This document shows, one piece after another, positions 16,740-28,317 of a stretch of DNA of 64,000 nucleotides. The notes beneath the pieces were generated by a model, which saw only the letters and a list, made by a program, of their open reading frames with translations, was not told where the DNA came from and did not search any database. A program made the translations under genes and the position numbers. Source of the stretch: Phytoseiulus persimilis (taxonomy: Eukaryota; Arthropoda; Arachnida; Mesostigmata; Phytoseiidae); contig CM075102.1 of NCBI GenBank assembly GCA_037576195.1, positions 13,264,745 through 13,328,744 of the forward strand, given 5' to 3'. Positions within the stretch are counted from its first letter, which is position 1. Every line of letters starts with the position of its first letter.

Positions 16740-17032
16740 TGTAACAGCCAGTTGGATTCTTGAGGAGAGCTAGCTGGAATGTTCTCTGGAGATGCATGTC
16801 GGAGGCGGCAATGCCGGCAGTTCGACATAGGAAAGGGAAGCGGCGTTGACGAGAGAAGCCGCCAGTAGCTAGGAAGAGAGTGTAGAGAGAGTGCCGTGAA
16901 CGGTGTGAAGGACCGTGGCTGCCTATCGAGGAGCCGGTCGAGAAGAAGTGAAATAAAGAGAAGTTGAACTATAAGTGCACTGTCCCTCTTCCCTGAGTGG
17001 ATCCAGGTATAGGTCCCTATCGGCCTGTTACA
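16740..17032 (+). repeat. Gypsy 5' LTR
   Basis: The 293-bp repeat has inverted ends TGTAAC/GTTACA. The only difference from the 3' LTR is G versus A in gtggctGcctatcg. AATAAA occurs in gaagtgaaataaagag near its end. Confidence 0.93.
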
Positions 17033-17133
17033 AAGCAGCGGTGGGATTACTCAGAGTGAAGTGGTGGACGAGTGAGTGACGCAAGGTGCATAGTCATCGA
17101 AGACGAGGTCAAGGTTACGGACCGTAACGGAAG

Positions 17134-20100
17134 ATGGACGCAATGAAGGATCTCAGGGAGGAGATCGAACAGCTCAAGAAGCTCTTGGAGAAGAATAATG
17201 CAGGAGCGACAGACTCCGGAAGGATGGGAGGAGAATGGAAGGAGACCGCGAAAGCTGTTGAGCAGTTCCCGGGAGGAACGATCACTGAGGCGAGCGAGTG
17301 GCTTGAGGACCTCATTGGAGCAAAGGACGCCGGTAAGTGGTCTTGGGAATTCACCCGTTCAGTGCTGCTTGGGAGGATGATTGATTCCGCGAAGTACTGG
17401 CACCGCGAATACGGAACGAAGGCAGTAGATTTTGAGGAATGGGTAGGAGCATTCAAGGAGGCGTACATACCTCAAGAAAATAAGATGGAATTATTAGAGG
17501 AGATTCAAAGAATCAGGCAAGAAAAAGGGGAGACGGTAGAAAGATACGTCCGAAGGAAAGAATCACTCGCGAAGAGGTTAGGCTTAGCTTCGGAGGAAAG
17601 TAGGGACCAGATTCTCAAAGGGTTACGTCCAGAGTATAGATTCTTGATCCACGAAATGCGCGGAAGGGTGCATAAAACCACAGCGGACCTAATTAGAGAT
17701 ATTAATCGGAGTATGGACATCGAGCGAGAAGTCAGGGGAGAACGTTTGCCACCAGCGGACCGACGGGAAACGAGGCCCGGAGCAGGAGTGACTTGCTACA
17801 TTTGTCGGAGGGAAGGACACAAGCAGATGAACTGCCCGGACAGAAGGGAGCGTCGCGCGGTAGAAGGATACCCGAGTCGACCACCAAGGTCGGATTCGTT
17901 CGGAGGATCACCAAGAGGAAATTCCGGAGATTGGCGAAGACAACCGACGGACGATTCGAGACATCGCGGCAGGTACGACACGAGAGGCCAACCAGGCCCA
18001 TCAGGAGGTGGACATCGCGAACTGACGTGGAGAGAGACAGCAACACCGGGACCCGGACCAATCGTTTGTGGTCGATGCAAACTAACTGGTCACCACGCGA
18101 GGGAATGCAGACGAGCTCGCCGAATAACAGCGACAGGAGACCACGAAGGGCGGACACTGCCAGAAGTCGAAGAACCTGCACCAGAAGTTTGCCAGATCCT
18201 AGATGGACCCGCGGGAGTCGAAACTGAAGAGGAAGACAGGGGAAGCAAAACTGTCCGAGTTAATGGAATCGAATGGCAAGCGAGAGTGGACACCGAAGCG
18301 CAGCTGAGCGTCATTCCTCAGAGTGCGGCGGAGGCTCTCAACTTGAAGATCAGCCCAGGAACAGTTCGACGAGTTCGAGGAGTAGGCGGAGGTTGCAACA
18401 CGCTAGGTCAAGCGATAGCAAGTCTAGCGGTGGACGGCATCGAGGCGAAGAAGGTCACGTTGACGGTCTTGCCGAACGAGGCGATGGAAGGAGAAGAAAT
18501 TCTGATAGGGAAGGATTTCCTAGACGATCCAGAGTTGGCGACCGTATATCGTAGGGGAATGGCCTGGGTGGTAGAAGAACGAGCGATCGAAGACATCGCC
18601 AAGCTGCTGCCCCAACAAGGGAAGAAGGTGAAGCTGAAGCTACAGGAGGAAGTTACTCTAGAACCGAGAACAGTGTCACTCGTGACCACCACTCCGATCG
18701 ATGGCGATACAGTGAGGAGTGAAGGGATGATAGTTGTCGGAGACCACAAGGAAGTCACCGAATTCGGAGCCCTGTACGAACTACAGGAGGGAGGCCTGAC
18801 AGTTCCAGTTGCAAACCCGGGAGAATACGAGCTCATCTTGAAGCCAGGGACAATCGTGGCGGGAGGAACCTTAGTGGACGAAGAAGATCTTTTCAGGCTG
18901 AAGAAGAAGACAGGCAAGGGTAAGGAAGCCACCATCGGACAAATAACAACCAACAAACCAACGGAGAAGAATTGGATCAAGGAGAGTGAGATAGACGTCG
19001 GACCCGCACTGCCGGAGGCCGTGCAGGATAGGTTGGTGACGATGGTCAACAAATATCGGGAGGTTGTCGCGACATCGATGGTAGAACTAGGTCGCACGTC
19101 ATGGGCCGAATTTGACATCAACGAAGTGGAAGGAAGTCAGCCGGTCCGAGCCAAGCCATATCGTTTGGCGGCACCGGAGAAGGAAGCGCTCGAAGAAATC
19201 ATCAAGAAGATGAGGGATGCAGACATGATCGCACCATCGCAGTCGCCGTACGCGAGTCCGGTTCTGCTTGTCAAGAAAGCGGACGGAAGTTGGAGGATGG
19301 TCATCGACTATCGGAAGCTGAATGCACAGACGGTGCGACTGAATTTTCCTTTACCGCTCATTGACGAGATCCTAGACGAGATAGGAGGCAGGGAGATGTA
19401 CTCGACATTCGATTTGGCGTGGGGATTCTTCCAAATCCCAATGAAAAAGAAGGCGGCGGAGAAAGCAGCATTCGTGACACCAGGAGGTCACTTTGAACCG
19501 AAGGTGATGATGATGGGACTCTGCAACGCACCAGCAGCATTTCAGGAATTGATGATGAGGGTCAGGGATAGAATCAGGTCCCGGCAGACATTTCCATTCT
19601 TGGATGACCTGATTACAGCATCAGACCTCTACAACGATCATCTTGACAGGATCGAGGAGATTTTCATAGCGCTGAAGGCAGCGGGGCTAACGATAAGATT
19701 GAAGAAATGCAAATTCTTCAGGACATCGGTACAATTCCTTGGATTCACAGTGGCGAAGGATGGAATCAAGCCAGGAACTCAAGGAGTTGCTGAGGAAGGA
19801 AGCGAAGTTCGAATGGACGAAGGATTGCGAAGAGGCGTTCGCGAAGCTGAAGGCGTCGCTGACAGGAGCATCGTTGGCTCGCTTCGAAAGAGGCAGACCA
19901 ACTCAACTACACACAGATGCTTCACTTGTCGGCCTTGGCGCAATACTGATGCAGGAAGCCGAAGGGAAGTGGAGAATGGTCTACGCAATAAGCAGGAAGC
20001 TTTCGGACACGGAGCGAAATTATCATTCGACGAAGTTGGAACAACTTGCGGTAGTCTGGGCAATGGAGAGGTTCCGGCATTACTTGCTGGGGATCCCGTT

Positions 20101-21937
20101 CGTTGTGGTGAGCGACTGTGTAGCGGTCTCAGCCCTGAAGGCAAAAGGAGGATCCGCACAACTGAACCGCTGGCTCAGCCGAATCGCGGAGTTCACGTTC
20201 GAAGTCAAACATCGACCAGGGACAGGCATGGCGCACGTGGATGCTTTGTCACGAGAACCGCATGAAGAAGCTCAAGAAACGGAAGACGTAGACTTACCAA
20301 CAGACGTAGCAACAGTTAACATGGTACGAGCCGAAGAAGATCAGTTTCGAGCGGTGCAAGCAACGGATAAGGACATCCAGAGAAGGATGAAGATTTTGGC
20401 AAAAGAGGAGCAAGACAGAACAAGCCAAGAAAGAGCATTCATTGGAGGAGGATTCGTTTTGCATCAAGGACTTCTATACAAGGAAATGGAAGGCCGAAGG
20501 CTGTACGTGGTTCCGAAGATACTGAGAAAATACATATTGGTGCTGAATCACGACAAAGCTGGACACTTTGGGATGGAAAAGACGATGGAGTTGCTCGAGA
20601 GGAGATATTGGTTCCCGAAAATGAAGAAGTATACGAAGTTTCATCTGCGAGCGTGCTTAGATTGCATCTACAACAAGGAGAAAAGTGGCAAGGCAGAAGG
20701 CCTCACGAACATCATTCGATCGGAGAGACGACCATTTGAGAAGGTTTTCATAGATCACCTTGGACCACTGATAAAGTCAAATAAGAAGGAACACATCATA
20801 GCGTTGGTCGACGGATTCACGAAATTCGTTCTTCTGGGAGCAGTGTCTAGCACTAAGACAAAAGGAGTGATCAAGTTCTTGAAGGATTTCTTCACAATGT
20901 ATGGCAAGCCAGCTAAAATCGTCTCAGACAGAGGATCGGCATTCACATCGAAAGATTTCGAGGAACTGCTGAAGGAGAATGGAGTCACTCACGTCGAAAT
21001 TAGCACACAACATGCATGTGCGAACGGTCAGGTGGAGCGCCTGAACAAGGAGATAGCTAGGTTGTTGAGATCCTTGTGTGAAAAGGAGGATCACAGCGAT
21101 TGGTCATACAAGCTGAAGGACGTGCAGATGTGGCTGAACACAACTATGTCTAGGAGCTTAGGGAAATCTCCATTTGAGGTGTTACATGGATATCTACCGC
21201 GAATAAATAATCATGAGCAAGTGTTTGAGGGGGCTCAGGAAAAGCTTTGGACACCCGCGGAGGAAGTTCAGAACGAAATTAGGGGAGTTCTCAGGAAGAG
21301 TCAGGAACGGTATAAGTATTATAGTGACTTGCGGGAAAGAATACACGTTCGCTTCAACGTAGGGGATGTCGTTTTCGTGAAACGGTTGCCAGTGCCAACG
21401 GGTCAGCCAACCAAACTTCAGCGAAAGTTCAGGGGTCCCATGACCATAACCAAAGTCCTAGCCAAGGATTCGTACGAATTGATGGAGCTTGGAGCGAATC
21501 AAAACTACGTTTGCACAGCTCATAGTTCACAGTTGAAGTGGTTCCAACCTCACAACGAGGAAGACATCGAGGGAGATGAGGAAGACACAGAAGAGGAGGC
21601 GCAGAAGGATGTCGACACAGGAGTCTCCAACGATATCTTGAACGAGAGCGACACGCAGCCCATGGATTGGTCTTCAGTCATGACACCAAGGACACCGATG
21701 CGATTCGAAGGAGGATACCGGGACAGGTCACAGTTGTCATCGGAAGGAGATTCATCACCGAACTCAGTGGAAGTGGAAGCGGACATTCAGACAACACAGC
21801 ATGGAGAACCCAGGAGAACGGTAGATCTAAATTCAGCGAATATAGAGTCTCCTGGCGAGGATAGAGTAGAACCTCAACGTAGGCAGCAACCTTCTAGGCA
21901 GGTCAAGTTTAGACCCGGGTTCAGATACCCTAAGTAG
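17134..21937 (+). pseudogene. gag-pol: Gypsy gag-pol polyprotein (internal deletion and frame change)
   Basis: ATG 17134 starts a 1043-codon frame. It has a coiled N-terminus, a Gag capsid-like region, and two CCHC knuckles (CYICRREGHKQMNC about residue 221; CGRCKLTGHHAREC about 311). The protease follows near 385, where the usual DTG reads DTE. RT comes next with LPLIDEILDEI and FLDD (about 822). Just after LGFTVAKDGIKPG, near 19770, the frame turns to nonsense. The correct continuation (ELLRKEAKFEW) is in another frame from about 19780 to 21937, with RNase H, an integrase HHCC finger (NHDKAGHFG...CLDC) and D-D-E residues in IDHLGP, SDRGSAF and NGQVERLN. The usual ~40 residues between these blocks are missing, so the break is a deletion of roughly 100 nt. 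Confidence 0.88.
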
Positions 21938-22199
21938 TTCTGTTGAGGACAACAGCGTAGGTAGGTGTGCCGAGCGATTAGGTATGAAGTAAACAATGCA
22001 GGAAAATCAGCTGGAAGAACAGCGGCAAGATTCAAATCAGGATGAAAAATCGAGGCGCAAGAGGGCGCGCAAGAAGATGGAGACCGTGACGTGAGAGGGC
22101 GCAGCGATCAATCTCGAGCTTCATCTTGGAAGGAGGGAAGAGCAACGGTCTTTTCCGCTTCGAGTCTTGCCGAGGACACACGCAACCACATAACACGAA

Positions 22200-23387
22200 A
22201 TGGAGCCCTGCAGAGCCTGTGGTGACAACAGGCACCAGACGGGTTTCTCGGCCTGCGCAGCGCTAAGGGCAACATGCTTCTTATGCCGAAGGGTGGGTCA
22301 CTTTGGAAGATTGTGCCCGGATCGACCGCTGCCGAGAAGACCCAGGGCTGCGCGACAAGTGGAGCAACGAGGTGAAGTCGCGACGACGGCGAGGGAGCAG
22401 GAGGAAGATCCTGTTCGCACCACAGAGGAGGACGAGGACGTCGTTCGCACCACAGAGGAGGACGAGGACGTCGTCCGCAACACAGAGGAGGACGAGGACG
22501 TCGTCCGCAACACAGAGGAGGAGGAGGACGTCGTCCGCACCACAGAGGAGAACGAGGCACCGCGGGAACTAGTGCAGGAACAAGCGGAAACATCAGCGAC
22601 GTCGGAGGCAACTGATGAGCTCTCTAGAAGGTTGGTGGAGATTCTGACGTGCCCAATCTGCCTCGAGGTGGCCGGACCCCCGGTGCTGCAATGCATCAAC
22701 GGTCACGGAGTCTGCTCGCAGTGTCGTGCTCGATTGGACAGGTGCGCACAGTGCCGGACGCCATTGGAAGGAGGAGTCCAGAGGAATCGCGCAATCGAGG
22801 CGCTGGCCACAGGGATGACCTTTACCTGCCGACATGAGGAGTTTGGATGCGTGGAGCGGCCAGAGTGGCAACAGAAGGCGTCGCACGAGCAGGAGTGCCG
22901 GATGAGAGGGACGGAGTGCCCGCTTCGCGAAGATGAGTGTCGTTGGCGAGGACCTAGCACGGAGGTCGGAGCACACGCCCAACAACGACACAGGTGCACC
23001 ATGATTCAGGCGGACGCGCAGACGGAGTTCCCAATGCGTAGGATGAGCCGGCCCAACTACGAGGCCAGATGGATCTGGACCCAACATGAGGAGTGGGTGG
23101 TGCTTGGTATCCTGGTGGAGGCTACGTTCGACCTGGAGCCGCAGTTGGTTCTGAGCTTGATGGTGCTAGGAACGGAGGAGCGAGCGTCAGCGTTCCGAGG
23201 GCGCATTTCAGTCATGACGGCCCAAACGCAACTGATTTGGGAAGGGACGCCGCTAAGCTCCGATGTCGAGGTTCGGGAGGCGATTCAAGCCGGGAGCGGC
23301 TTCTACATCGACGGGCGAGCGATGATTCGACTCGATCGAGAGGGAACAATTCGCATCGTGGCGTCAATCGAACGGAGTCATCAATAA
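22200..23387 (+). CDS. RING-SIAH E3 ubiquitin ligase-like protein inside Gypsy element
   Basis: An intact single-exon frame of 395 residues starts 262 nt after pol. Residues 26-39 form a CX2CX4HX4C zinc knuckle as in retroviral nucleocapsids. An acidic 10-residue repeat, TTEEDEDVVR, recurs about four times (about 73-117). Residues 151-188 form a RING of the SIAH type (CPICLE...QCINGHGVCSQCRARLDRCAQC). A SIAH-type double zinc finger follows (about 205-270; CRHEEFGC...H..EC...C...C.W.G....H...H). The C-terminal ~120 residues have no firm assignment; SIAH proteins carry a substrate-binding domain there. SIAH ligases target proteins for degradation. Here the protein may act on host defence or element proteins, which is inference. 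It is more intact than pol. Confidence 0.82.
   Translation: MEPCRACGDNRHQTGFSACAALRATCFLCRRVGHFGRLCPDRPLPRRPRAARQVEQRGEVATTAREQEEDPVRTTEEDEDVVRTTEEDEDVVRNTEEDEDVVRNTEEEEDVVRTTEENEAPRELVQEQAETSATSEATDELSRRLVEILTCPICLEVAGPPVLQCINGHGVCSQCRARLDRCAQCRTPLEGGVQRNRAIEALATGMTFTCRHEEFGCVERPEWQQKASHEQECRMRGTECPLREDECRWRGPSTEVGAHAQQRHRCTMIQADAQTEFPMRRMSRPNYEARWIWTQHEEWVVLGILVEATFDLEPQLVLSLMVLGTEERASAFRGRISVMTAQTQLIWEGTPLSSDVEVREAIQAGSGFYIDGRAMIRLDREGTIRIVASIERSHQ
22418..22552 (+). repeat. in-frame 30-nt coding repeat
   Basis: Four copies and a partial fifth of a 30-nt unit (caccacagaggaggacgagg plus acgtcgtccg) encode TTEEDEDVVR and variants with Asn for Thr or Glu for Asp. The units are almost identical in DNA, so the acidic linker expanded recently by slippage or unequal exchange. 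Confidence 0.9.
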
Positions 23388-23529
23388 AAGCATTGTGATA
23401 GGTTAGCGTACGCTCGCGCACAACTAGAGTCATTATTCAGTAGGTAATTTCTTCTAGGGTTAGCTAGGCTCAGAGAATTCCAGGTTAGCATATGCCAGGA
23501 GGCATTACGACTAGGGTAGCATGGTCGAA

Positions 23530-23822
23530 TGTAACAGCCAGTTGGATTCTTGAGGAGAGCTAGCTGGAATGTTCTCTGGAGATGCATGTCGGAGGCGGCA
23601 ATGCCGGCAGTTCGACATAGGAAAGGGAAGCGGCGTTGACGAGAGAAGCCGCCAGTAGCTAGGAAGAGAGTGTAGAGAGAGTGCCGTGAACGGTGTGAAG
23701 GACCGTGGCTACCTATCGAGGAGCCGGTCGAGAAGAAGTGAAATAAAGAGAAGTTGAACTATAAGTGCACTGTCCCTCTTCCCTGAGTGGATCCAGGTAT
23801 AGGTCCCTATCGGCCTGTTACA
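23530..23822 (+). repeat. Gypsy 3' LTR
   Basis: This 293-bp copy matches 16740-17032 except for one base. The bases after its terminal CA are CATG, the duplicated target. Confidence 0.93.
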
Positions 23823-24977: not shown

Positions 24978-26067
24978 GGCTTTGGAGAAGTATGAGCGTA
25001 TATCCGCCTGTTTCTTCTTCAAGCAAGATCGACTGCATGGCACTTGAAGTTGTCTAGCAGTAGAAGGATGTGGCGGTTATATTTCCTGAGAACCTCTTCG
25101 AGCTGCAGAAGCCATTCCGTGAAAATCGTACTGTTCATCCAAGTTTTTTTCTGGGATCGGTAATGACGACCAAGCTGCTCGACTCGGTGATGGATCTCGT
25201 TCTTGGACTTTTTCGGAAAGCATCGCGGGGTTCTGCTACGTCCGATAACCAAGGGCGTTAGTTCCTCGGTGCCATCATAGTTCGCGCAAAAGAGGACTGT
25301 GAAGCGATCCTTGCTCTGCTCTCCTCCATGGCACGCCTCACCTTCGAAATGAACCGTTCGATTGGGCAACATTTTGTAGAAGAAACCTGTCTCGTCGGCG
25401 TTGAAGATGTTTTGGAGAGGATATTGCTCCAGAGTTCCGCGATGCTCATCAATCCATCCGTCTATGTCTCTCTGGTCAACCTTCAATGCTTCTCCGCAAT
25501 TTCGCTTCGTTGACAGTTTGAACCGATTTTTGAAGCCTTCCAGCCATGAATTCGAGCCCTTGAAATCGGAAGACTCATTTCGCTCAGCTTCGCTTCTTCT
25601 TTCAACCAGGCCCCGGAAATGGGCAACGACGGGTTCAATCTTCGAGCCATGGGGAAAGCCTTGTAGAGGTTATTTTCCAAATCTTCGAACTTGCACTGTC
25701 TCACCCGTTTCCGCTGTATATCCGGTTCTTGCGCTCGTTGTTGTCTGATTTTCTCCGCGTCTCGCCGCATGTTGTAGACCGTTCCTTGAGAAATTTTCGA
25801 TTTTTTTTGTGATTTCCCTGATCTCCATCTTGGAGTTGAGGTCGTCAAGAACTTGGATTTTCTCCCTGAGGCTGAGGTTTGTAGGCTTCCTTCTTCTCGA
25901 ACCGACCGGGCGAATCGCTTATCAGACAACGCTCCGAAAAGACAATTAGAATGATGATTACGAAATCTCGCTGAACCGTTAGCGAAGCAAGCTCTGCGCG
26001 TCGGTGCGGCCGAGACCCTCTCCAGCAGAGGAAGACGACGCGGTCCAGCAGAAAGAATTGCTCTCAC
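24978..26067 (-). pseudogene. Tigger/pogo transposase (frameshifts, internal deletion)
   Basis: Tigger-type sequence is spread over several frames on the - strand. The N-terminal helix-turn-helix (LREKIQVLDDLNSKMEIREI, then after a frameshift in a run of A, SQGTVYNMRR) is followed by a CENP-B-like region (ISGAWLKEEAKLSE). A further frameshift near 25590 leads to SNSWLEGFKNRFKL. The DDE catalytic domain has the first two Asp (FNADETGFF; LLLLDNFKCHA). Just after the second Asp, at about 25020, it jumps to KKKQADIRSYFSK, which looks like the C-terminal tail of pogo-like transposases and contains a PCNA-binding type motif (QADIRSYF). The stretch with the third acidic residue is gone. The protein is dead. 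Confidence 0.85.
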
Positions 26068-26289: not shown

Positions 26290-28317
26290 GTGGAATAATA
26301 GTGAATTACTAGGGGCCGAAGATCCGCGGGCTGTCCGCTCCAAGACAGCACCATGGGAGCGGACTTGCACCGGCGTTACAGGCGCCCTCAACCATATGTA
26401 GGTTCCACGTAGTAATAGAACTTTCTCCATGAAATCTCGAGGAGTCTGAGAATCCTTCCCAAACTTTTTTGAGATGATCGCTCTATCTCAGTGAATCATC
26501 GAATTTAATCGAGCAGAGCCCATGTCGCTCCATTCCCCCGCTGACTCCGGAATATGGGGTGGCCTTATCCGAGCTTCCACCTCTGTATTTCTCAGAAATA
26601 CCGGTTTCAATCACTGATCCCTCACAGCTTCGGTGAACGCGAGCTCTCGGAAACTCTCTTGGCCATGGGACCCAGTCGGGCATTCCGAATCCCCAACCAA
26701 TAGTTTTCCCCTGTCAGCTTCATCAGGTCAATTCGAATGCTTCAAGTCATCGCAGACGCAGACACATCTGGCTGCGGTCACTCCGCTTCCTTTTCGCGGA
26801 GTCGAGTCTCAAGGAGCTCGACTCGCGCGACATATAGCTCTCGATAAGTGGTTATCCACGGGATGATTCCGCAGATCTACTCCTGAAGCTCATGAATCCG
26901 TCGGACTAGATCCTCCCTCTCTCAGCCACTCCCTCGCTCCTTCCAAGCTAAATCAGCTCGAGTTTGGAAGAATATCAGTTGAACATTCTGAAGATCGTTG
27001 CCCCTCGTTGAGTGGAGGTATTCCTGCAGTCTATTCGTTCCTTACTGCGAGGCGGATAATCGCTTCTCATGGTCGGACTCATCGTCCAAGATGCGTTCCC
27101 TCAGTTTACTGCCGGCGCAACCAACACGGAGACGAGCACGGGTTTCGTTTCTCCCTCCCGATCGTGGATTCCGCGCGACCTTCATCAGCGGCAAAAAAAA
27201 ATGTGGGCCAAGATTTCAGCCTTGGTTTCTGAAAATCCACAAACTTCCTCAAGCGCCCAGTATGACTCATCCGACATAATTTCTGGCATGAATCTCCCTG
27301 GCTGAGGTTTTCTCGCCGTACAACACGAGAAAGCGATCTTGAATTCCGACGATGACGTGAGCCGCTGAGATCTGAGAGACTCTGGAGATAGACGAAGTTG
27401 AACGAAACAGTGCTTTCTACACTGACACGAGCTTTCACAATCGAGCGAGAAGGGGGTCTGCGGCGCTCTGATCGGTCGACTTGCCTGATCCATATTACCG
27501 TGTTTCTCAGAAAATAAGCCATCCCCCGGAAATAAGCCATACCTCGATTTTCGAACATTTCGCGGCCGAGGAACCGCATCGTCGACGATGAGCCAGACGC
27601 TGAGAAGCCCTGCCGGAGAAGGAACAGAGACAGCGGGAGGAGCTCCGCTCCACGACGAGAAGCAACGAACTCCTGGAGACTCGAGTCGGGTCTACAACCC
27701 CTCCGACCTACATACTAGACCATCTGTCAACTTATGTCAAGATGTGACTCATCTAGTGTCTGGACTCTAGACCAATCGTTGGAGAGCTACGCGCTCCCTC
27801 TAGGGAGATAAGGACCCTCTTTTTCAAATAAACTCCACTGTGGTACAGGGCCTTCTACTCTGTACGTCTGTACGACCCGAGCTGAACATACCTGGGAATT
27901 AGAGATGGAGTGGCTAAGAGGTAGGAGAGATCTACTTCGACGGATTCGTGAAATTCAGGAGCAGATGCTTGAAATGATTCCGCGGAGTACAACTAACAAA
28001 GAGCTATAGGTCGCGCCAGTCGAGTTATTCGAGACTCCGCGAGAAGGGAGCCGAGTGCCAATATCCATGATGAGTCTGCAATGGCTGAACGCATCCAAAG
28101 AGATAAGGTTCCGATAAGGCCACCTCATCTATCAGAGTTCGCGGGGAAGGGGAGCGGCGTGGGCTCTCTTCGATAATATTCGATGACTCACTCGAATAGA
28201 GCGATCATCTCGTAGAAGTTTGAGGGGATCCTCCGACTCCTCGAGATCTTATTGAGGAAACCTCAATCTCAGGGTGGAGAAGGGAATAAGGCCGCCTCAC
28301 AGAACCGCTGTAGCGCA
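26290..28317. other. no gene recognised; old dispersed repeat at ~26.76 kb
   Basis: About 2 kb without a recognisable gene. Nucleotides ~26760-26866 (+ strand) encode a peptide pattern HLA...LP.RGVES.G..LAR..ALDK that recurs on the - strand at ~36590-36682. A related DNA piece lies at ~28013-28095. The shared peptide suggests an old duplicated coding exon or transposon fragment; the family is unknown. Confidence 0.35.

Follow-up and report, generated by a model that had tools for sequence, protein, structure and literature searches.

A SIAH-type RING and zinc-knuckle ORF kept, and apparently traded, by retroelements of Phytoseiulus persimilis

In bdelloid rotifers, LTR and Penelope-like elements share ORF3s for a GDSL esterase and a DEDDy exonuclease; the excerpted text of that report indicates that its authors propose exchange by template switching, and that the departure of these ORF3s from neutrality was not significant (PMC5408684). 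Orchid Ty3/Gypsy elements carry an ORF for an AlkB m6A demethylase, the activity of which was, according to the excerpt, demonstrated in vitro (PMC9289625), and Cer1, a Gypsy-type element of C. elegans, is described in its abstract as encoding CERV, a protein acting in genomic RNA export (PMC10309623). The sharing of an ORF3 by different retroelement classes is thus already known from bdelloid rotifers, and in the open-licence PMC literature searched, as represented by partial texts, no LTR retrotransposon was found to carry an E3 ligase ORF, of SIAH type or otherwise.

The DNA stretch analysed (hereafter, the window) comprises 64,000 nucleotides of Phytoseiulus persimilis (assembly GCA_037576195.1, contig CM075102.1, positions 13,264,745 to 13,328,744). 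It contains a Ty3/Gypsy retrotransposon at 16740-23822, both LTRs of which enclose an additional ORF (ORF3), and the features of this element are as follows.

16740..17032, plus strand: 5' LTR, 293 bp, TGTAACA...TGTTACA (direct repeat; preceded by CATG)
17134..20265, plus strand: gag, protease and reverse transcriptase, frame 1 of the broken gag-pol (Pfam Retrotrans_gag, gag-asp_proteas, RVT_1)
19739..21937, plus strand: RNase H and integrase, frame 2 of the broken gag-pol (Pfam RT_RNaseH, Integrase_H2C2, rve)
22200..23387, plus strand: ORF3, 395 aa, in the order knuckle, acidic linker, SINA RING, SINA zinc fingers, TRAF-like part (ORF, Pfam, SIAH1 alignment)
22209..22316, plus strand: two CCHC-like zinc knuckles, aa 4-39 (sequence motif)
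22395..22557, plus strand: acidic 30-nt tandem repeat (repeat family D2)
22650..22754, plus strand: SINA-type RING, aa 151-185 (Pfam Sina_RING)
22806..23009, plus strand: SINA double zinc finger, aa 203-270 (Pfam Sina_ZnF)
23010..23384, plus strand: TRAF-like C-terminal part, aa 271-395, divergent (sub-threshold Sina_TRAF; SIAH1 alignment)
23530..23822, plus strand: 3' LTR, followed by CATG (direct repeat)

The two LTRs agree at 292 of 293 bases, with a CATG target duplication on each side, and the element is a young retrotransposon. Its assignment to Gypsy was made from the Pfam domains and their order (Retrotrans_gag, gag-asp_proteas, RVT_1, RT_RNaseH, Integrase_H2C2, and rve), which extend across two frames. 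The pol region is broken: 125 nt present in another copy (L031) are absent, and the break in the frame falls between RT and RNase H. A spliced intron was rejected as the source of this gap because the absent stretch lacks GT...AG ends. ORF3 begins with ATG and contains no internal stops, and the earlier note was thus right to place an ORF that is intact, while pol is not, in the env position inside both LTRs. Elsewhere in the window, the remains of a DDE_1 (pogo/Tigger-like) DNA transposase were identified on the minus strand at 25019-26067 (Pfam match, 25019-25486), and an inverted repeat (26460-26572 and 28110-28222; arms of 113 nt, 79% complementary, 1537 nt apart) possibly represents the ends of another transposon.

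The RING and double zinc finger of ORF3 follow the SIAH/SINA pattern, as had been claimed from the sequence. Both Pfam matches exceed their cut-offs (Sina_RING, 8.2e-12, 45.5 bits versus 29.3; Sina_ZnF, 1.1e-13, 51.7 bits versus 32), and all eight RING Cys/His residues and those of the zinc finger are retained. The matches to Sina_TRAF (23.6 bits; cut-off, 24.8) and zf-CCHC (14.2 bits; cut-off, 20.8) fall slightly below threshold, and the TRAF-like end alone gave a weak match to SIAH in a profile comparison (7% probability). The closest solved structures are those of human SIAH1, namely 9g0l (1.1e-18, aa 143-239) and 4c9z (3.7e-12, aa 202-368). An Arg residue directly follows the last RING Cys in the window, in a BEL copy and in a second Gypsy family (both described below), a position which we take to be that of the RING ligase linchpin. 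The nucleocapsid-type CX2CX4HX4C knuckle previously noted at the N-terminus corresponds to C26-C39, and the same Gag-type motif recurs at another place in the genome, within the Gag portion of a 1393-aa gag-pol frame that also contains an integrase. A second CCHC-like knuckle with wider spacing, absent from the earlier note, lies further upstream (C4-C19). The linker (aa 47-133) has a net charge of about -21. No envelope-type hydrophobic transmembrane segment was found in ORF3, the highest 19-residue hydropathy value being 1.62 and lying within the RING, and an envelope protein identity was rejected on hydropathy.

A search of the genome (181 Mb in 127 contigs) yielded at least 79 matches to ORF3. 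ORF3 sequence adjoins the integrase in all six of the best copies with a full-length integrase (91-100% identical, the window's included), so that the search for further Gypsy copies proposed earlier was positive. Among these six, ORF3 is both whole and free of interruptions in the window copy alone; that of L031 starts near the RING, that of L033 starts at aa 189, and those of L032, L034, and L035 are broken. An unbroken gag-pol together with a complete ORF3 is present in none of the six, L033 having a 1588-aa frame yet a truncated ORF3. Three further LTR-flanked copies carry other 4-bp target duplications (TATC, CGTC, and GAGG). Sina_ZnF was detected at 17 places in the genome, one being an intron-bearing host gene and 16 being in retroelements; as assigned by flanking LTR, integrase, and ORF3 matches, the latter comprise 11 places in the window family, three in the second Gypsy family (L052, L053, and L054), and two of BEL/Pao type (L051 and L056). 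Sina_RING was detected at 19 places, including the host gene. These data indicate that ORF3 is a feature of the Gypsy family. Of the two outcomes that the earlier note had named as refuting its claim, neither was observed: other copies carry the ORF, and it is no read-in of a host exon.

The next most complete ORF3, that of L036, has one stop and two altered RING Cys residues (C151S and C185F), and its RING is predicted to be dead. Four copies of the window family (L040-L043) share an in-frame loss of the RING, the zinc finger, and part of the TRAF-like region, and the frame of this short form is open in three of them. Its interpretation as a splice product is not favoured, as the junction resembles a short-homology deletion. 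In the deleted copy L042 (C1:8773761-8774237), the short ORF3 lies within one 953-aa open frame behind gag-pol, which is an accidental gag-pol-ORF3 fusion. A 1.85-kb LTR-flanked derivative was also identified at C3:23233213-23235064; its LTRs match that of the window at 99 and 98% identity, and it retains the end of ORF3 alone (aa 213-395) in a 342-aa frame.

In comparisons of the window with eight of the 14 aligned copies, the dN/dS of aa 134-395 was 0.06-0.23 when read in the true frame; the two wrong frames gave 1.08-4.71. Selection on the RING Cys/His residues, which the earlier note had proposed to measure, was assessed with the Cys/His codons of ORF3 across 14 copies: these were altered in 6 of 233 cells, versus 177 of 1416 for the remaining codons of their domains. 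The Cys/His replacements were C19R (in two near-identical copies), C4R, C151S, C185F, and H212P, and H212 is probably no zinc ligand. Random shuffling of the observed changes across codons mostly produced more replacements than were actually seen, this test being uninformative for pairs with few differences, such as the knuckle part of L032. Higher dN/dS values were obtained for pairs that do not include the window (0.62 in the RING and zinc finger of L036-L039, and 0.68 over the last 71 codons of L038-L041) and for RING-less copies compared among themselves (0.31-0.74 or more, with 10 replacement and no silent changes in the C-terminal part of one pair), as expected of decaying copies. For the integrase of the same copies, dN/dS was 0.22-0.44, with a value of 0.81 for L031 based on 12 differences. 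Between window-like copies, the constraint on the RING, zinc-finger, and TRAF-like parts equals that on the knuckles. ORF3 was therefore under purifying selection while the copies multiplied.

ORF3-like sequences were also identified in other Gypsy families. In the second family, the integrase is 72-73% identical to that of the window family, and ORF3 has three knuckles. Older, broken copies (L050, L052, L053, and L054) retain RING or zinc-finger pieces; in L045 and L047, which are younger (LTR identities of 99.6 and 98.9%, respectively), a stop truncates the RING, and the first RING Cys is missing. A third family (L048 and L049; integrase 62-64% identical to the window family's) encodes a knuckle-only ORF3 of 263 aa behind an unbroken 1688-aa gag-pol, and the LTRs of L048 are 99.6% identical over 245 bp. 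No ORF3 match was found in the approximately 2 kb after pol in four remoter elements (L058, L059, L060, and L062). The RING part has evidently been lost at least twice with the knuckles retained, and it appears to be dispensable, being missing from the short-form sub-family and, in the second Gypsy family, from the youngest copies. A minisatellite, with the translated motifs LWRGDSETNLSITFQ or ITPPELESNAQI, lies beside several elements at different places:

L048:8198-9502, L061:1923-2261, L062:1080-2321, L064:1-150, and L045:1-582: tandem minisatellite

An ORF of the same type was found in a BEL/Pao copy (L051).

C3:24824398-24825129, minus strand: ORF3 of the BEL/Pao copy, 244 aa

This ORF encodes a double knuckle, a RING, and a SINA zinc finger in the same order as the window ORF3; the RING scores 20.6 bits, under the cut-off of 29.3, and the zinc finger is above its cut-off (3.0e-10). 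It matches the window ORF3 both from the RING to the TRAF-like part (2e-19) and in the knuckles (1e-7, 48% over 40 aa). Its knuckles resemble those of LIN-28 (4.8e-4) and, weakly, retroviral Gag knuckles (0.0069). In both L051 and L064, four residues separate the first two Cys of the RING (C-x4-C in place of C-x2-C), and L064 has a stop there. DUF5641 (1.5e-10), part of the integrase end, lies directly upstream of the ORF, and no rve match was found for the integrase fragment of L051. Integrases 72% identical to this fragment share frames of 1860 and 1849 aa with Peptidase_A17, which we take to be a mark of BEL/Pao; the class of L051 is thus assigned from DUF5641 and the Peptidase_A17 of its relatives, its own RT not having been seen. 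The N-terminus of this ORF3 was detected at eight places (57-100% identity), six of which lie 282-433 bp downstream of a match to the L051 integrase; with the same query, no ORF3 match was found beside the two intact relatives with 1860- and 1849-aa frames. The knuckle-RING-SINA fusion is common to two Gypsy families and one BEL/Pao family, and this type of ORF3 is therefore shared by different retroelement superfamilies.

A tree of 35 rows (nine Gypsy and two BEL modules, 15 animal SIAHs, and nine plant proteins), in which several rows are short pieces, long branches meet, and four Gypsy rows have an odd residue make-up, placed the element modules in one clade (98/96), apart from the animal SIAHs (97/88) and the plant proteins. 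The host sina gene (L055), which has several exons, was compared with 14 hand-picked animal SIAHs and grouped with Varroa (100/99) inside them, which makes a mesostigmatid mite the likely host. In the SIAH tree that the earlier note had called for to find the donor, and in the recurrence of the same build in the second Gypsy family and in BEL/Pao elements, the module thus does not look recently taken from the host sina, and the idea of a host ligase joined to an element-derived piece is not supported in that form. As the element clade is separate from the animal SIAHs and its branches are long, the capture of a SIAH-type module by the elements looks old. In other species, the protein search returned no element-borne relatives and nine plant SINA-like matches among the 8000 best word-sharing candidates, a weak search given that element ORFs are often unannotated and the word filter is strict. 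The sole profile-search match, P0010, is a RING-zf-TRAF protein and was rejected as an element ORF3, and viral contigs gave no match.

The synonymous divergence of ORF3 from the window was at least twice that of the integrase in all six copies allowing the comparison (e.g. 0.346 versus 0.131 in L034). Of the six copies with data for 22140-22740, five show a peak of 10-20% in nucleotide difference from the window in this interval; outside it, pol differs by about 3-7% and the LTR by 3-8%. The closest copy, L032, differs by 1.7-4.3% within the same interval. Exchange of ORF3 between lineages best explains the raised dS together with the local divergence peak and is probably its source.

On balance, and with modest confidence, we regard ORF3 as a long-standing accessory gene of these retrotransposons that would encode an RNA-tethered E3 ligase, captured once long ago, exchanged thereafter, and helpful without being essential. 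The knuckles would hold the protein on the element RNA or on Gag particles, the RING, with its linchpin arginine, would recruit an E2, and the zinc-finger/TRAF-like part would dimerise and bind the substrate. Ubiquitination of a nearby protein would then help the element; this target could be a factor with which the host silences or restricts it, or else Gag or integrase of the element itself. The cassette would have been captured from a SINA-type gene and exchanged between element lineages through template switching. That the cassette may be helpful and non-essential is suggested by the several lineages that dropped the RING part yet kept the knuckles. The motif PxAxVxP, presumably the SIAH degron, was not found in the Gag or Pol frames of the window. 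In a bolder version, arthropod retroelements would use the knuckle-RING-SINA cassette as a mobile tool of counter-defence: after a single capture, Gypsy and BEL/Pao elements would have traded it at the env position, and it would place a ubiquitin ligase on the RNA or particles of the element, where a host silencing factor is then degraded. This version is speculative and rather doubtful.

A complete, uninterrupted ORF3 in the window alone among the copies examined is what would be expected of a local chimera, with a host exon read into a single retrotransposon copy. The presence of ORF3 in copies with the target duplications TATC, CGTC, and GAGG, the purifying selection acting on it, and the location of the intron-containing host sina at another locus led us to reject this reading as practically impossible. 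Gypsy and BEL/Pao elements may instead have captured SINA-type genes separately, or taken them from a lost host gene that already joined knuckles to SINA, with no exchange between superfamilies. The placement of the Gypsy modules with the animal SIAHs was not rejected (p-AU 0.117), long branches meet in the tree, and fusion to a knuckle could happen more than once given how common the Gag type is. Against this stand the single element clade (98/96), the similarity and collinearity of both the knuckle and SINA parts between the window and L051, and the same position of ORF3 behind the integrase in the two superfamilies; we consider separate capture unlikely, although its chance is appreciable. 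A single old capture followed by later exchange would be the simplest reading of these data and is unproven.

Concerning function, ORF3 might chiefly be an RNA-binding or RNA-export/packaging protein similar to CERV in its position and perhaps in its role, with the E3 module as an optional add-on. Knuckles are common to every ORF3 form (the two Gypsy families, BEL, and the RING-less short forms), the third family combines its knuckle-only ORF3 with an unbroken gag-pol and nearly identical LTRs, and CERV is, according to the abstract, required for the export of Cer1 genomic RNA. The E3 parts are, however, constrained as strongly as the knuckles, which argues that the E3 module is not idle, and we hold this account to be rather unlikely. 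SIAH proteins dimerise through the zinc-finger/TRAF-like region, and the TRAF-like end is retained even in the RING-less short forms, so that the SINA part could serve as a decoy or adaptor that binds host SIAH or its clients without ligase activity. Such a role appears very improbable, given that the RING Cys/His residues are intact in every readable window-family copy except L036 and that the C-terminal constraint is weak among the short forms (dN/dS, 0.31-0.74). The RNA-tethered ligase is the reading that we retain.

These results suggest that mobile elements retain, and pass among themselves, a tool for tagging proteins. Exogenous viruses often counter the defence of their hosts with ubiquitin ligases that they bring along or hijack, and a retrotransposon-borne ligase would place this arms race inside the genome; an element with its own ligase would also give a direct route to the host factor that it removes. 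The occurrence of one cassette in both Gypsy and BEL/Pao elements is a case of accessory genes crossing retroelement superfamilies, with selection that can be measured.

Compared with SIAH/SINA E3 ligases, ORF3 has the same RING and double zinc finger over the Pfam cut-offs and a collinear alignment with SIAH1; unlike them, it has N-terminal knuckles, an acidic repeat, and a divergent TRAF-like end, is encoded by an LTR element, and lies outside the animal SIAH clade (98/96 versus 97/88; alternative placement, p-AU 0.117). CERV is likewise an additional element-encoded protein next to gag and pol, although its abstract names neither a RING nor a SINA part (PMC10309623). The orchid AlkB elements, as described in the excerpt, similarly carry a host-type enzyme as an extra ORF in a Gypsy element; the enzyme and the host are different, and ORF3 is a ligase predicted from its sequence (PMC9289625). 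The ORF3s of bdelloid rotifers, as far as the excerpted text describes them, are closest in being non-envelope, enzyme-like ORFs behind pol that are common to different retroelement classes, whereas the ORF3 described here combines a SIAH-type RING ligase module with Gag-type knuckles, is shared by Gypsy and BEL/Pao elements, and is under strong constraint (PMC5408684).
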